Made by a program: the position numbers and the translations under genes
Assembly: GCF_009730915.1 (NCBI RefSeq)
Contig: NC_052487.1
Coordinates: forward strand, 806,001 to 870,000
Origin: Dioscorea cayenensis subsp. rotundata
Lineage: Eukaryota > Streptophyta > Magnoliopsida > Dioscoreales > Dioscoreaceae
Direction: 5' to 3'
Length of the DNA: 64,000 nucleotides
Notes under the pieces: generated by a model
Seen by the model: only the letters and a program-made list of their open reading frames with translations
What the model was told of the DNA's origin: nothing
Databases searched by the model: none
Shown here: positions 42,223 through 48,901 of the stretch, piece by piece
How positions within the stretch are numbered: position 1 is the stretch's first letter
How the letters are laid out: each line of letters starts with the position of its first letter

Positions 42223-45200
42223 TTAGTCGGGGAGCCTCAACCGATCGAACAGCACTAAGAAGCTATGCTCAGGGACGACGTAAAGAAAGCCCAGCTCCAT
42301 GCCCCGGATATGTGGTCCTAATCCCTGCAGAGCTAACTGTGAGTTTTCTCAAACAAATGCTAGAACATAGTTACCTTAATTCAAATCCTGTTGGTTTTTG
42401 TTACTGAGTGTAAAAGAACCATTTTCTTATCTAGTGTGTGGTCAGACAAAGTATGGTTTAACAAGTCAAAACTCAGAGAAATGAATTTCCAAACATAGTA
42501 ATTTTACCTTGCCATTTAGTTGGAGAAGTTGTCCTTCAACCCATTGTGGATTCTTGAATCCAGGTTCTGCTATTCTTCCTTGACCTTTGTAACTTGCTAC
42601 CTATATGTATAACATGACAGAAGATGATGTGCCGCAGAAATCGACCATCATATAAATGAATGAATCAAAAGTGCTGGACAGCCTGGACCGATTTTTAGAT
42701 CAAAAGTTTAATATAAAAACATGCAATTCATATGCCTGTCATATAAGAAAGTATAAAGGAAAGAACAATTACCACGCCAAGCTCATCAGGAAACATTCCC
42801 CGGTTAGCAAGGCGGCTTCCTTTTCCAATTTTGGCACGAAAAGTAACCTGAATATGAAAATCAGGACACAACAAACTAAAACTAATGCATGAAAATAAAG
42901 TGTGGTACCGAACTACTACCACAAACCTGCCCAGCAGGAACATTTAAATCTCCGGTTAACTTTACTGCTTCAACATACTCAAAAAATTCAACATCTGATC
43001 CATTGCTTGTTTCATCTGTGTCATTCCAGTGGCCAAATTTGCGTCTCAACTGTACCACCTCAATGCCATAGGGACCAAAAGATCCCACATATAAACCTGC
43101 ATTTCAGATCAGTTCAAGAGATCATGAATCAGTATTCTACAACAAAATACCAGCCTTCTATAACACCTTACCATCAAAAGGATCCAAACTATCATTATCA
43201 GTGGTGATCCGGTTAAAGATAGTGGTCCTAGGCAGTTTGTTTCTTCTCTGTGCTTGGCTGACTGCAAGCTTAACCACCTCCCGGAGATCTCTAGAAACCT
43301 AAAATGATTGATAATTAATGACTAATTCATATATTATCTATGTACTTCAATGTAACATAAAAATATTTCTCGAGATGCAGACTTTATATGACAAATGCAT
43401 AGATTGTTGGCAACATTGTCACATGTCATTTCATGAAATGATGTAGAAAAGTTCTTAACCATAAGGGATCGAATCCTCCATCTGCTAATGACCAGGTAGA
43501 CCCCAACATCAAGGTTAAAATCAATCAACCAACTTACACATCTACATGTTTCTGGTATCTCTGATTTTCAATAGAAATATAGAGGAACTAGTTTAGTCCA
43601 AAAAGTAAGATGCCAAGCAAGGCCTCATATATTTATTCATTTGGTTTGAAGTCTAAAAAAACACTGATTTATGTGGCAATGAAATACATTGTCCATTCTA
43701 ATGAAGAATCTATAAAGGCGATAGAAAAAAAAAAATTGCTGCCTATAATAATGAAATAAAGGTTTGAAATTAAAAACCTTCGAAGAAACTTTGTCAGCGC
43801 TCAGAAGTCCTTTTGCGACATCAGGAGGCATAAGGTCAGAAGCTGCTTGGGCAGCAATTGCAGCAATTTTGATTTTGGCAGATCTTCTTTCCCCAGCATC
43901 TGAATTACTGCTTCTGCTTGGAATGTGTAGCGTAAATAAATCCTTCTCCATATCATTTATTTTTGCAGGAAGGCGTATGTAGGATTTCGACAAGACATCC
44001 TCTTTGTTATGAAGCACGCCACCAATAATAACCTTCATGGCTGTATTTTTGTTTTCTTCATTGGAATCAGTATCATCACCAGCTGAATCTTCTCGTTGGA
44101 AATCATCCACGCTACTGACCTCATCCTCAGAAACCTCAGGAGATGCATTCTTCACAACATCTTCTTGCATTAACTGCTCCAAAGAATCTGCATTCACTTT
44201 GACATCCTCTGAACCACTCACATTGACTTTAACCTTGAACCCAGGAATTCTTTCCTTGAAAAAATCAATAACACTCTTTAAGCCTTCTTCATTAGCATCC
44301 TTAACCTTTGCATCATCATTGCTCTTTTCTGTTGTATCCTGCGGTTTATCATCATCGCTATTTTTCTCTACTGCACCTTCATTGACCAAATTGCTTTCTA
44401 GAGTTGAGCTATTAGAGTCAGCCATGGGTGAGCCATCAGTAGTACCTGATGCCAATGTTGAAACCATTGAATTCCCTTTCACCGACTGCAGGTATACGAC
44501 CTGTAGAAAGGTTGCAGAGTTGGTAACTACTTTTTTTTTTTAACATCAGCTTGCAATCAAGTCACAAGCTTTGAATCATACCTGCGTTATGTACGACCCA
44601 TCATCATTTTTAACAAGAAAGATTTCAAACAATGGAGTCCCTGGAGATCCAGTAATCAGTTGTCTGAAATGGCGTAAGAATGTCATTCATAAAATATTCA
44701 TATCTAGCAAAACACCTAAGCAAAAATTTCATTTTTTTTTTAAACCTTGGATAGTAACTCCTGGCTACAAATCTTCCCAAAGCTGGAGCTATTCTCACTA
44801 TTCGACCAAACGGATCATCTGAATCCATTGACCAACCCACCCACCATCCTACCTGAGAATTCATAACTCTAACATAAATATCATCTATAACACACGATAT
44901 AATAGCAATCCAAATAGAGAAGGACAAAACTATATCAAATTGCTCTTCTTCTTGATGGTAAAGACATACCAAACCAGTCCCCGCAATCCTACATAATCTG
45001 GATGCATCATGGTACCGCTCTTCTTCAATAGCATTCTGCAAAATTTCAAGAAAGAATCAAAGCTAGAGTCTTTACTTCAAAGATTGAAACTTTAGTGATT
45101 GAAGCAATCAACCCACGTTCAATTCAGACATAACTTCAGCTACCACATCCTTTGAAGTAGCTTCCGCTATTGCTCTCTTCAATTTAGCAGCTTCCAAAAA

Positions 45201-45708
45201 ATCCTCTTTCTCAATTGCATCTTCAAGTTGAAACTGATAAATTTAAAAAAAAACAAAAATAACAAAAATAACAAAAACAAAATTTCTTAGAAATACAAGG
45301 ATTGCGTCATAAATTTCGGAAAGAATCAAAAGAAAAAAAAATTCATGAAAAATCCACAAAACGAAATCAAACCCCAAGAAGTCAAAGATCGAAAAAATGG
45401 AATTCAAGGAGAATGGTGACCTTAAGAACGGAAGAGAAGTTCTCCGCCTGGTCAGTCTCAGAGAAATGGCGGCTCCATCGATTCCAGTCCCAATCGGAGC
45501 AGCCATCAGTGGCGGCGGAGGAGGACGAGGACGAGGATGAGGAGGAGGAGCAGCGGCAAAGAAGAGATTGTGGATGCTTGTAGGACCTTGAGATGGCCCT
45601 GCGGGAGAACGTACCGGAGAAGGTTAGATGGGAGGAGATGAACGGCCGGGATTGAAGGATCGGCGCCGGCGGTGAGGTACGTGCGCCGCACGCGCGCGGC
45701 AGCGCCAT
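42223..45708 (-). CDS. EX: EXECUTER protein, plastid singlet-oxygen signalling
   Basis: Thylakoid-associated plastid protein of the EXECUTER1/2 family, which senses singlet oxygen and starts retrograde signalling to the nucleus. Eleven exons join in frame to 649 residues: 45708-45421, 45233-45117, 45035-44970, 44852-44746, 44663-44582, 44500-43778, 43298-43172, 43096-42927, 42847-42773, 42600-42508 and 42324-42223. A Ser-rich transit peptide (about 1-60) includes an 11-Ser run. A UVR-like helical pair lies at about 97-160 ([20 protein letters not shown] and the related [15 protein letters not shown]). An acidic, Ser-rich, poorly conserved middle follows. The conserved C-terminal singlet-oxygen-sensor (DUF3506) domain has [38 protein letters not shown] and [15 protein letters not shown]. 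Trp605 in [15 protein letters not shown] probably corresponds to Arabidopsis EX1 Trp643. EX1 or EX2 cannot be decided by eye. Confidence 0.95.
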
Positions 45709-45834
45709 TTCGCTTGGACTCTTTTGAGGACTGGATAGAGTTTGGGGAAGGCTTTAAGTTAGCGGAGCATGTGGCTGTGGATCAGCTGTTTGGGTTGTTG
45801 TATTCAAATTGGTAGTGGGGCTTTTATTGAATGA

Positions 45835-45840: not shown

Positions 45841-46355
45841 GCTACTTTTGGATTTATTATTTTTATTTTCCTATATTTTTGTGAATATTTGTCTATTTGT
45901 TATATTTATATGTGTTTACTCCTTAAAATTTAATTTGTTTGTATGCATTCTTCTCTATTTCATGGACATCGTTAAAATATATATTATAAGTTATATAGAT
46001 ATTAATTTTTAAAATGAAAATTTTGATTTTTTATTTAATTTTTTAAATGAATATAGTTACTCTTATTTTTTATTTTCATTTTTTGACAAAATGTGAATAA
46101 GTAAAGTGTGAATAAGTGTAGAGTTAATATTTCAACATACATATGCTTTTATTTCGTGTGAGTTAAGTTTCAATATGAACACCTTACGCAATAAACTAGG
46201 TGTTACTAGACTACAACATCGTTGATTAATTTTTTTTTAATAATAAATATGTTAAGTACTATTAGAATTTGTTAGAATTTAAATATAATAAATGAAATAA
46301 TTTTTTATCTAAATATGTAAAAGTAATTTTGTTATTTAATATGTAATAATATATA
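45841..46355. other. AT-rich spacer upstream of EXECUTER
   Basis: About 500 bp of AT-rich DNA with no gene or repeat that I can support, ending at the Mutator-like element. Confidence 0.5.
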
Positions 46356-47774
46356 GGGCAAACTATATGTTTTAGTCACTAAATTATTCGTGTTTTCTTA
46401 ATCTGGTCACTAAACTAAAAAAAAATTCAATTGGTCACTAACGTTAACATTTTCTTCTAATTAAGTCACTCATTTCAATGTCGTTACCCTGACTCTGAGC
46501 TGGCGCGCCATCTCACCTGACACTGTTGAACTTTCTCTTTGATTGCTGACGTGACATTCCACTTCAACAATCCATTGTCACATAGTACCTATCTTATAAA
46601 TTACACCAAATCCACATGTTTCAAGCTTATTCACTCTAAGCTGATACTCCTCCCACACACTGCCATTATAAATTATACAAAGCAAAGCAAATCCTCCGCT
46701 TTTGCTTTCCAACAAAAGCTCGAAGCAATCGAAATCAGACCTCGCCGAGCATGGTGCCCACTAATGCCAAGTGCCACCTTCTCACAAAGGTCGCGCGCCT
46801 CGACAAGCTAGCATGGGAGATCCAAGACTATTTTCTCGCTAATCTCTAAGACCTAGAACGAGGAACATACCCTTTGCTAGTGCGTCATCGCCCTTGATTC
46901 GGACCTCCGCAAATTGGAAACCGCTGCTTGGAAAGCTGCCCTTGATCATGCAATATTGGATAAGGTCTTTGAGATGTGTTCCTAAATTTATTTGATCTTT
47001 TGCTTTGTTTGGTGTGTGATTGTTTGATTCTTGGTGTTCAGTTTAATGAAGGATTGTGTAGGATCAAATGCCTCCTTAGTGATGCCGATGTGGCGCCACT
47101 CCTCTCTAGCACAAACAATGGTGTTTTGATTTTTTTATTTGTTTGTTTTATTATTTTTATCTAACTTTGTTCTTGGTTTTTTTATTATGGAATTGGGGTT
47201 TTTTTTTTTGTTTGGTTTTGTTATTTGAAGTTTTTTTCTTCAATTGAGGAACTGAAGTTTTTTTCTTTTTACTTCTTGAAGATGTTTCTCGGCTCGATAA
47301 ATGTCCGAGCGACGAGGAAGGAGGTTCAACTCAAAGTGAAAGGGAAGTATAACAGTTACAGGATGAACGGAGATAGGTACCTTTATCTTCCTCCTCCTCC
47401 CACACAACGCCATTATCCTAAACCTCAACAACGATACCCCCCGCTAACCTCTCCTGCTTCAACCTCAAACCCACACTATCCCCCTTCCCCACCGTCCATG
47501 CCTGAGCAATCCCCATGGATTTCCACTAGCTGCTATTTTCTCATCATCCACAAACCCATGTTGAAGTGGAATGCCACAACAACCCAAGAGAAAGTTCGAC
47601 ACGTGTCAAGTGAGGTGGCGTGCCAGCTCAGCCCAGCATCAGGGCAACAACATTGAGGCAAGTGACATAATTGGAAGGAAATGCTAATGTTAGTAGCCCA
47701 ATTGAATTTTTTTTAGTTCAGTTACTATATTAGAAAAATATGAATAGTTTACTGACTAAACATGTAGTTAGTCC
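46356..47774. mobile_element. Mutator-like element with long TIRs carrying host gene pieces (Pack-MULE)
   Basis: The left arm (46356-46568) and the reverse complement of the right arm (47561-47774) align over about 213 bp. Shared blocks include CATGTTT(T)AGTCA(C/G)TAAA, AAAAAAATTCAATTG, the GC-rich stretch around GCTGGC-CGCCA-CTCAC and CATTCCACTTCAAC. The flanks TAATATATA and TAATAATAA fit a blurred 9-bp target duplication beside a (TAA)n run. No transposase is present. The 1-kb interior contains three exon-like pieces with splice borders that resemble a TMEM120/TMPIT-like gene, so this is most likely a non-autonomous Mutator-like element that has captured host sequence. Confidence 0.8.
46893..47362 (+). 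pseudogene. Captured fragments of a TMEM120/TMPIT-like gene
   Basis: There are three exon-like pieces inside the Mutator-like element. Piece A, about 46893-46964, encodes LDSDLRKLETAAWKAALDHA and ILDK and ends at a GT. Piece B, 47042-47120, follows CAG and encodes FNEGLCRIKCLLSDADVAPL and LSSTNN, ending before GT. Piece C, about 47270-47362, encodes FLKMFLGSINVRATRKEVQL and KVKGKYNSYR. The order and content match the N-terminal part of plant TMEM120/TMPIT-like membrane proteins as I remember them, especially INVRATRKEVQLKVK. The first membrane segments that should follow are absent, and the reading frame between pieces B and C does not join simply. It is therefore a partial copy and not a working gene. 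Confidence 0.6.

Positions 47775-47832
<58 letters not shown>
47775..47832. repeat. (TAA)n microsatellite touching the right end of the Mutator-like element
   Basis: About 19 near-perfect TAA copies begin exactly at the element boundary. The array may have grown out of an AT-rich target duplication. Confidence 0.9.
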
Positions 47833-48020
47833 TTTGAATTTTAAAAGATACATGTGGTAATTGACCATCTCTATAATAAAATGGTAGTATTTATTTCCTT
47901 CTTACTTTAAAAGTCCAAGGTTTGAATTTATAATTATAAAATAATAAAAGTGATGTGATTTTATTAAGATCACATTTGGATTTTTTTCAAAGCATAATTG
48001 AGAATTCCGAATGCGTTTAG

Positions 48021-48901
48021 CAAGGTTGTCAGACTCGGACCGGTCCGACCAGTTTAACCGTAAAAATCGGAAACCGACTATGTGGTCGGTCCGGGTATAC
48101 CTCATTGACCCGGGTATTAAAAAACCCGGTGTTAACTCGGTGACCCGGGCTATTCAATCATGAACCGATTGACTCGGCCGAGTCAATCGGGTCACAATGT
48201 TTAATTTTTTTTACAATATTTAATAATTTATTATTATTTTCTCATTAGAAATCACAAAATCGTGTATATTTATTAATATTAATTTATAATTTATAATCAA
48301 TAAATAGAATTACAATATATATATATCATAAACATACCAATAAAAATTAATATTTAAAAATTAAATATATTAATGTGTTATGTAAATACTTTCTAAAAAT
48401 TTAATTTATTAAGAAAATAAAACAATAAATGAGTGTAATTTTCTTATAAAAATATAAAATTAAAGTATTCTAATTAAATAAAAAATATAAGAAAATTTAA
48501 AACAAAATAAAAACTCAATATAGATATAAGAATTAGTGAATTAAATTTCTTATTTATTTTAACAAAATCAACCAATAAATAAATAAATAAATAAATAACA
48601 CCAAGAGAAGTTCGATAATTATATATTAATATATTAACTTTGTAAATATTTAAAAAAAATATAAAAATAAATGACATAATTAAAAAACTCTACTGCATAT
48701 AAGGTCATTTATCAATTTAAATATCAAATTTGAGTAGGTTTTATAATATAATTATGGGTTTAATATTATATTTACTCATTATTAATTATTATAATATTTT
48801 TTATATTTAATTATTGATCCCGGTTTGACCCGGTCGAACTCATTGACCCCTGACCCCTGGGTTTAGCCGGGTTATTACCCGGGCCGAGTCTGACAATCTT
48901 G
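48021..48901. mobile_element. Non-autonomous hAT-like element, 881 bp
   Basis: The terminal inverted repeats CAAGGTTGTCAGACTCGG (48021-48038) and, on the other strand at the right end, CAAGATTGTCAGACTCGG (48884-48901) differ at one base. They are flanked by an 8-bp target duplication, GCGTTTAG on the left and GTGTTTAG on the right. The 8-bp duplication and CA-starting termini fit the hAT superfamily. Both subterminal regions are rich in CCGGGT and GACCCG words, typical transposase-binding repeats, and the middle is extremely AT-rich. No transposase coding sequence is present. Confidence 0.85.

Follow-up and report, generated by a model that had tools for sequence, protein, structure and literature searches.

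A stretch of DNA that has long inverted ends and carries open pieces resembling the exons of a host gene raises the question of whether it is a transposon that captured parts of that gene and, if so, from which donor, in what order and with what effect. Such a stretch spans positions 46356-47774 of the window, by which we mean the whole 64,000 nucleotides analysed here (C17:806001-870000 of the 584-Mb assembly). An earlier note, made from the letters alone, had read it as a Pack-MULE that carries three exons of a TMEM120-like gene; this reading stood as far as it went, and it missed a second captured gene, a type-2C protein phosphatase (PP2C) lying antisense to the first, as well as a filler at one junction. 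The element is a chimeric, multicopy, decayed and non-autonomous Pack-MULE of the Mutator superfamily (Table 1), and we put at about 0.93 the probability that it was assembled stepwise, by capture of PP2C and then of TMEM120, followed by spread and decay.

Table 1. Parts of the element and its flanking target sites (positions in the window)
Feature	Positions	Strand	Remarks
Left target-site duplication	46347..46355		taatatata, degraded, 6/9
Left terminal inverted repeat (TIR)	46356..46570	+	80.1% inverted match to right end; among at least 49 genomic matches
Subterminal element sequence	46571..46632	+	common to PP2C-carrying elements C246, C926 and C1
Junction filler	46633..46677	+	between element sequence and TMEM120; duplicated scraps
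Captured TMEM120 5' untranslated part	46678..46750	+	L029:3440-3517 on C11, 81.9% of 72 columns
Captured TMEM120 exon 1	46751..46964	+	82.7% of 214 columns; two stops, one 2-base deletion
Captured intron 1, GT and AG kept	46965..47041	+	90.9% of 77 columns
Captured TMEM120 exon 2	47042..47120	+	88.6% of 79 columns
Captured intron 2, acceptor gone	47121..47271	+	73.3% of 120 columns
Captured TMEM120 exon 3	47272..47362	+	89.0% of 91 columns; parent L029:4024-4118
Captured PP2C piece	47359..47545	-	80.9% to C9:591849-592034; antisense to TMEM120
Right terminal inverted repeat (TIR)	47560..47774	-	inverted match to left end
Right target-site duplication	47775..47783		taataataa, within TAA microsatellite

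Ends, target sites and copies of the element

The two ends, put at about 213 bp in the earlier note and found to be 215 bp long, align with each other over 216 columns, and the score of their local alignment (206) was reached by none of 500 dinucleotide shuffles, the best of which scored 39. Inside the window each end matches only the opposite one, and a genome search with the left end gave at least 49 matches, its own place included, from the 40 of 133 first-look candidates that were scored, a count of matches rather than of elements in which both ends of one element may appear. The ends are thus members of a genomic repeat family, and both things on which the earlier note had let its reading depend, a TMEM120 match and termini repeated elsewhere in the genome, were found. 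No transposase was seen among the stop-to-stop frames of at least 110 aa that overlap the element, in agreement with that note: the sole such frame (47165-47656, plus strand) holds the last of the three exon-like pieces (A, B and C), which is TMEM120 exon 3.

MULEs have ends of 100-500 bp and target-site duplications of 9-11 bp, according to the available part of one study (PMC3310237). The ends of this element lie within that range, and duplications of such a length are found in the family, although the degraded pair beside the window copy does not on its own amount to one. The C6 copy is flanked by taataaaaa (9/9), an A/T-rich and simple sequence, and copy C4b by gtaatttat (9/9), which recurs with one change (8/9) at C4a and C4c. 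The TAA microsatellite at 47775-47833 starts exactly at the right end of the window copy and has perhaps grown from the target duplication.

Five copies carry TMEM120 sequence, and they are found among the 20 genomic matches to the interior: the window copy on C17, one on C6 (C6:4879105, 79.9% identical to the window element) and three on C4, namely C4a (C4:10521375, 81.6%), C4b (C4:10732389, 82.3%) and C4c (near C4:11109137, 74.0%). Since the three C4 copies have both their flanks and their target duplication in common, they represent one insertion that was duplicated later, and the five copies amount to at least three insertions. The C4 copies lie within about 0.6 Mb, which points to local duplication in that region.

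A neighbouring gene on the minus strand of the window (43637-45753), which we take to resemble EXECUTER, has its putative ATG at 45708, and the element begins 648 bp upstream of that codon; a Pfam scan of this gene's frames gave no match. Beside the element, at about 48020-48200, repeated words of the ggtccg/gacccgg type look by eye like another dispersed repeat.

The two captured gene pieces and their donors

The TMEM120-like identity, which the earlier note had proposed, was borne out when the three pieces were joined with X at the stop and at the frameshift, as the joined sequence matches Pfam PF07851 (TMEM120A-B) with E=3.6e-11 and 43.3 bits, above the curated cut-off of 29.8. The frame starting with piece C alone stays under that cut-off (E=1.2e-5, 25.2 bits), Pfam scans of piece B and of each of the two parts of piece A gave no match, and neither did a PDB sequence search with the joined pieces up to E=10. 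In the genome, the interior matches C11:18149939-18150617, the start of a multi-exon TMEM120 gene whose hand-joined model matches PF07851 with E=4.6e-80. A genome-wide search for this domain gave 14 matches, of which C11 and C2007 account for five each, C4 for two, and C6 and the window for one each. The element aligns to the C11 gene at 80.5% over 707 columns, through the 5' untranslated region, exons 1-3 and introns 1-2, whereas the matches to the second TMEM120 gene, on C2007, are confined to short exon stretches. The C11 gene, or a close allele, is therefore the donor, taken as genomic DNA, and the C2007 gene was rejected in that role; a single parental gene with the same exon order is what the earlier note had foreseen.

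Alignment to this donor, from which the exon borders in Table 1 were read, also bears out the three exon-like pieces. It further explains their splice sites, described before as usable in pieces A and B and unclear in piece C. The window copy keeps both splice sites of intron 1 as well as the donor site of intron 2, and the missing acceptor of piece C is due to a 17-base deletion at 47271/47272, absent from C4a, C4b, C4c and C6, that removed the AG. This AG, which precedes GTCGCTTCTTGAAG or a near copy of it, is kept in the donor gene and in C4a, C4b and C6; in C4c the 17-base stretch is present, with GG in place of AG. Intron 1 has lost its acceptor in all three C4 copies and kept it in the window and C6 copies. 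The deletion accounts for the gap, and the possibility that piece C is a separate exon with its own acceptor was rejected.

The second captured piece, of 187 bp, adjoins the TMEM120 sequence. Its donor on C9 contains a minus-strand frame that matches Pfam PF00481 with E=7.1e-27 and a second frame that does so with E=7.2e-18; we presume it to be a clade-A-like PP2C, and in our scheme the source is a part of its exon 1. Three further elements, on C246, C926 and C1, have related ends and a longer PP2C piece (503, 503 and 459 aligned columns, respectively), and no TMEM120 match was found in them by alignment. Positions 1-277 of the element align to L033 (on C246) and to L034, and positions 26-277 to L035 (on C1), the first 25 bases of the C1 element not aligning with the other ends; the C246 and C926 elements have common flanks. 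In a tree of the PP2C pieces, built from a short alignment of less than 190 bp per row, the five copies with TMEM120 group together as a single clade (98 by ultrafast bootstrap), and the node that joins them to C246 and C926 is weak (support 53). As elements exist that hold PP2C without TMEM120, and as all TMEM120 carriers fall into a single clade, TMEM120 was probably added to an element that already carried PP2C, to judge from these sequence comparisons.

Elements with these ends hold other gene-like sequence as well. In the C246 (L033) and C1 (L035) elements, the stretch that separates the left end from the PP2C piece contains further frames on the minus strand, in which we see a likeness to the juxtamembrane start of a receptor-like kinase. 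The C1 frame had no match in Pfam, and a PDB search gave seven weak matches (E 0.09-0.56), to proteins named as protein kinases of receptor or lectin type. The same ends also bound the element L003:1501-3191, which contains a CAP/PR-1-like gene piece at about 2530-2703 on the minus strand (Pfam PF00188, E=1.4e-6), and L005-L008 align to L003 over this stretch at 87-97%.

Assembly, spread and decay

The junctions of the TMEM120 piece carry traces of how it may have been acquired. At its right border the end of exon 3 and the start of the PP2C piece overlap by four nucleotides, CAGG. At its left border, filler positions 46647-46669 resemble the PP2C-derived 47394-47416 (21/23), and positions 46666-46675, TTATAAATTA, repeat subterminal positions 46594-46603. 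When the fillers of the window copy, C4a, C4b and C6 were compared with their own PP2C pieces, 0 of 1000 shuffles did as well in any of the four; the corresponding counts were 0, 4, 0 and 0 for comparison with the C9 gene, and 19, 1, 4 and 1 for comparison with the copies' own subterminal parts, so the subterminal-like part of the window filler is weak (19 of 1000). Duplicated scraps and a short common joint are the expected traces of template switching, which we therefore infer. A likeness exists to animal Pack-TIRs, for which template switching (gap filling, FoSTeST) is described in the available part of one paper and in which microhomology of 1-36 bp, with a median of 2 bp against the 4 nt here, occurs at one breakpoint or more in 67.6% of cases (PMC8277862).

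In the proposed sequence of events, an element with these ends would first have held a piece of exon 1 of the C9 PP2C gene. During copying or repair of its interior, synthesis would then have switched to the C11 TMEM120 gene, copied about 680 bp of genomic DNA (the 5' untranslated region, exons 1-3 and introns 1-2), and returned into the PP2C piece at the common CAGG; small duplicated scraps would have remained at the opposite junction. The chimera would next have moved to at least three sites, in the C17 window, on C6 and on C4, presumably with transposase supplied in trans, and the C4 copy would later have been duplicated with its flanks, after which the copies decayed.

An alternative route, improbable here, is a fusion of neighbouring insertions, in which two elements flanked a gene piece and moved together. 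In the portion of the paper available, this is the favoured model for Pack-TYPE elements of several superfamilies, and it predicts newer DNA further inside (PMC8903248), a prediction that the position of TMEM120 inside a frame of PP2C and subterminal sequence does fit. However, no trace of these ends was found in the 9.9 kb examined at the C11 donor or the 8.0 kb at the C9 donor, where nothing but the captured sequence aligns to the element, and template switching accounts better for the duplicated scraps and the 4-nt joint.

Kimura distances between separate insertions are 0.147-0.181 without C4c and reach 0.324 with it. At the 1.3e-8 substitutions per site and year of grasses, the former range would correspond, as a rough guess, to about 6-7 million years. 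A tree of the TMEM120 pieces is almost star-shaped where the copies branch from the parent, the node between the window copy and those on C4 and C6 having a support of 44, and this shape fits spread soon after capture.

Piece A of the window copy has stops at codons 36 and 44 and a 2-base deletion. The first stop (TAG) is present in the window and C6 copies; the second is TAG in five of five copies, with CAG in the donor and Q in the C2007 gene, so the simplest reading is that the TMEM120 frame had been broken before the copies diverged. A coding function of the piece was rejected on account of this common stop. If substitutions are read from the parent to the window copy, a direction that is assumed, C>T and G>A changes account for 53 of the 108, a pattern like that of silenced, decaying DNA. 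The expectation in the earlier note of higher identity in exons than in introns did not hold in general: identity to the parent in exons and introns, respectively, is 85.4% (328/384) and 80.2% (158/197) in the window copy, 85.6% and 84.8% in C4b, 83.8% and 86.2% in C4a, 86.0% and 86.7% in C6, and 74.9% and 81.3% in C4c, so exons exceed introns in only two of five copies, and intron 1 of the window copy tops every exon. Differences from the parent at codon positions 1, 2 and 3 of the window copy number 19, 13 and 24 of 128 each; a third-position excess may stem from constraint on the parent alone, and these counts were not used as evidence either way.

The element most likely has no present function, though its sequence could still be transcribed or feed siRNA. 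A putative role for such transcripts or siRNA in regulating the parental TMEM120 gene, which the earlier note had suggested, is improbable. The window copy has eight exact runs of at least 18 nt in common with the C11 locus, the longest of 29 nt (mostly intron 1) and the longest within exons of 28 nt (exon 1) and 26 nt (exon 3), and many of the Pack-MULEs in plants give transcripts, and may give small RNAs, as the consulted portions of two papers have it (PMC8277862, PMC4858842). Against such a role stand the overall identity to the parent of about 80%, the substitution pattern of silenced decaying DNA, and the finding of no exact run of at least 18 nt between the window copy and the C9 PP2C donor. 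Exact runs of up to 28 nt with parental exons leave silencing possible, judged by sequence, and are not evidence for it.

The border of exon 3 also suggests a different template, RNA, for the second capture, which we consider very unlikely. The TMEM120 piece would then derive, by reverse transcription, from a 5'-exon intermediate that was still unspliced and had been cleaved at the 5' splice site of intron 3, and it does run, with its introns kept, from near a plausible transcription start (by eye) to the last base of parental exon 3. One edge of a PP2C capture (L030:3533) lies inside the exon frame and not at a splice site, which argues against RNA templates as a general route, and the plain alternative is that the splice-site letters CAGG merely gave microhomology. 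If true, capture from an RNA template would add a new way in which DNA transposons acquire genes.

Finally, a transposon-free duplicate or retrocopy of TMEM120 lying by chance between inverted repeats can be dismissed: the interior alone does look like a decayed 5' gene fragment, but introns 1 and 2 are still present, which rejects a retrocopy or processed pseudogene, and ends and interior recur together in five copies, with 9-bp target duplications on C6 and C4, which refutes a chance arrangement.

Relation to known Pack-MULEs

All features of the element are ordinary for Pack-MULEs. As far as the available parts of the papers go, those of rice, maize, tomato and Arabidopsis likewise have long inverted ends, no transposase and captured pieces of host genes, prefer GC-rich sequence, and occur in several copies with separate target duplications (PMC3310237, PMC8277862, PMC4858842). 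Here, G+C is 63% in donor exon 1 and 59% in the PP2C donor stretch, compared with 34% both in the rest of the C11 locus and in the window. Chimeric MULE-derived sequences with two or more parental genes also resemble this element, the two donors of which lie on different contigs; unlike chimeric MULE-derived genes, it has pieces of opposite orientation and a broken TMEM120 frame, and is not a gene. Animal Pack-TIRs likewise spread in multiple copies after capture, in a paper whose available part covers animals and leaves plants open (PMC8277862), and the route proposed for this plant element is one that we infer. A literature search found no paper that joins Pack-MULEs with TMEM120, TMPIT or protein phosphatase 2C.

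The known picture of Pack-MULEs is unchanged by this element, which shows no basic difference from others of its kind except that both donors, the PP2C-only elements and the junction scraps are all visible. The stop common to all copies suggests that they spread after the captured frame was broken, so that spread would have been independent of an intact TMEM120 protein piece. With both donors, the elements that carry PP2C alone, the chimera and its later copies present in one assembly, the steps of capture can be placed in order and the junctions can be read base by base.
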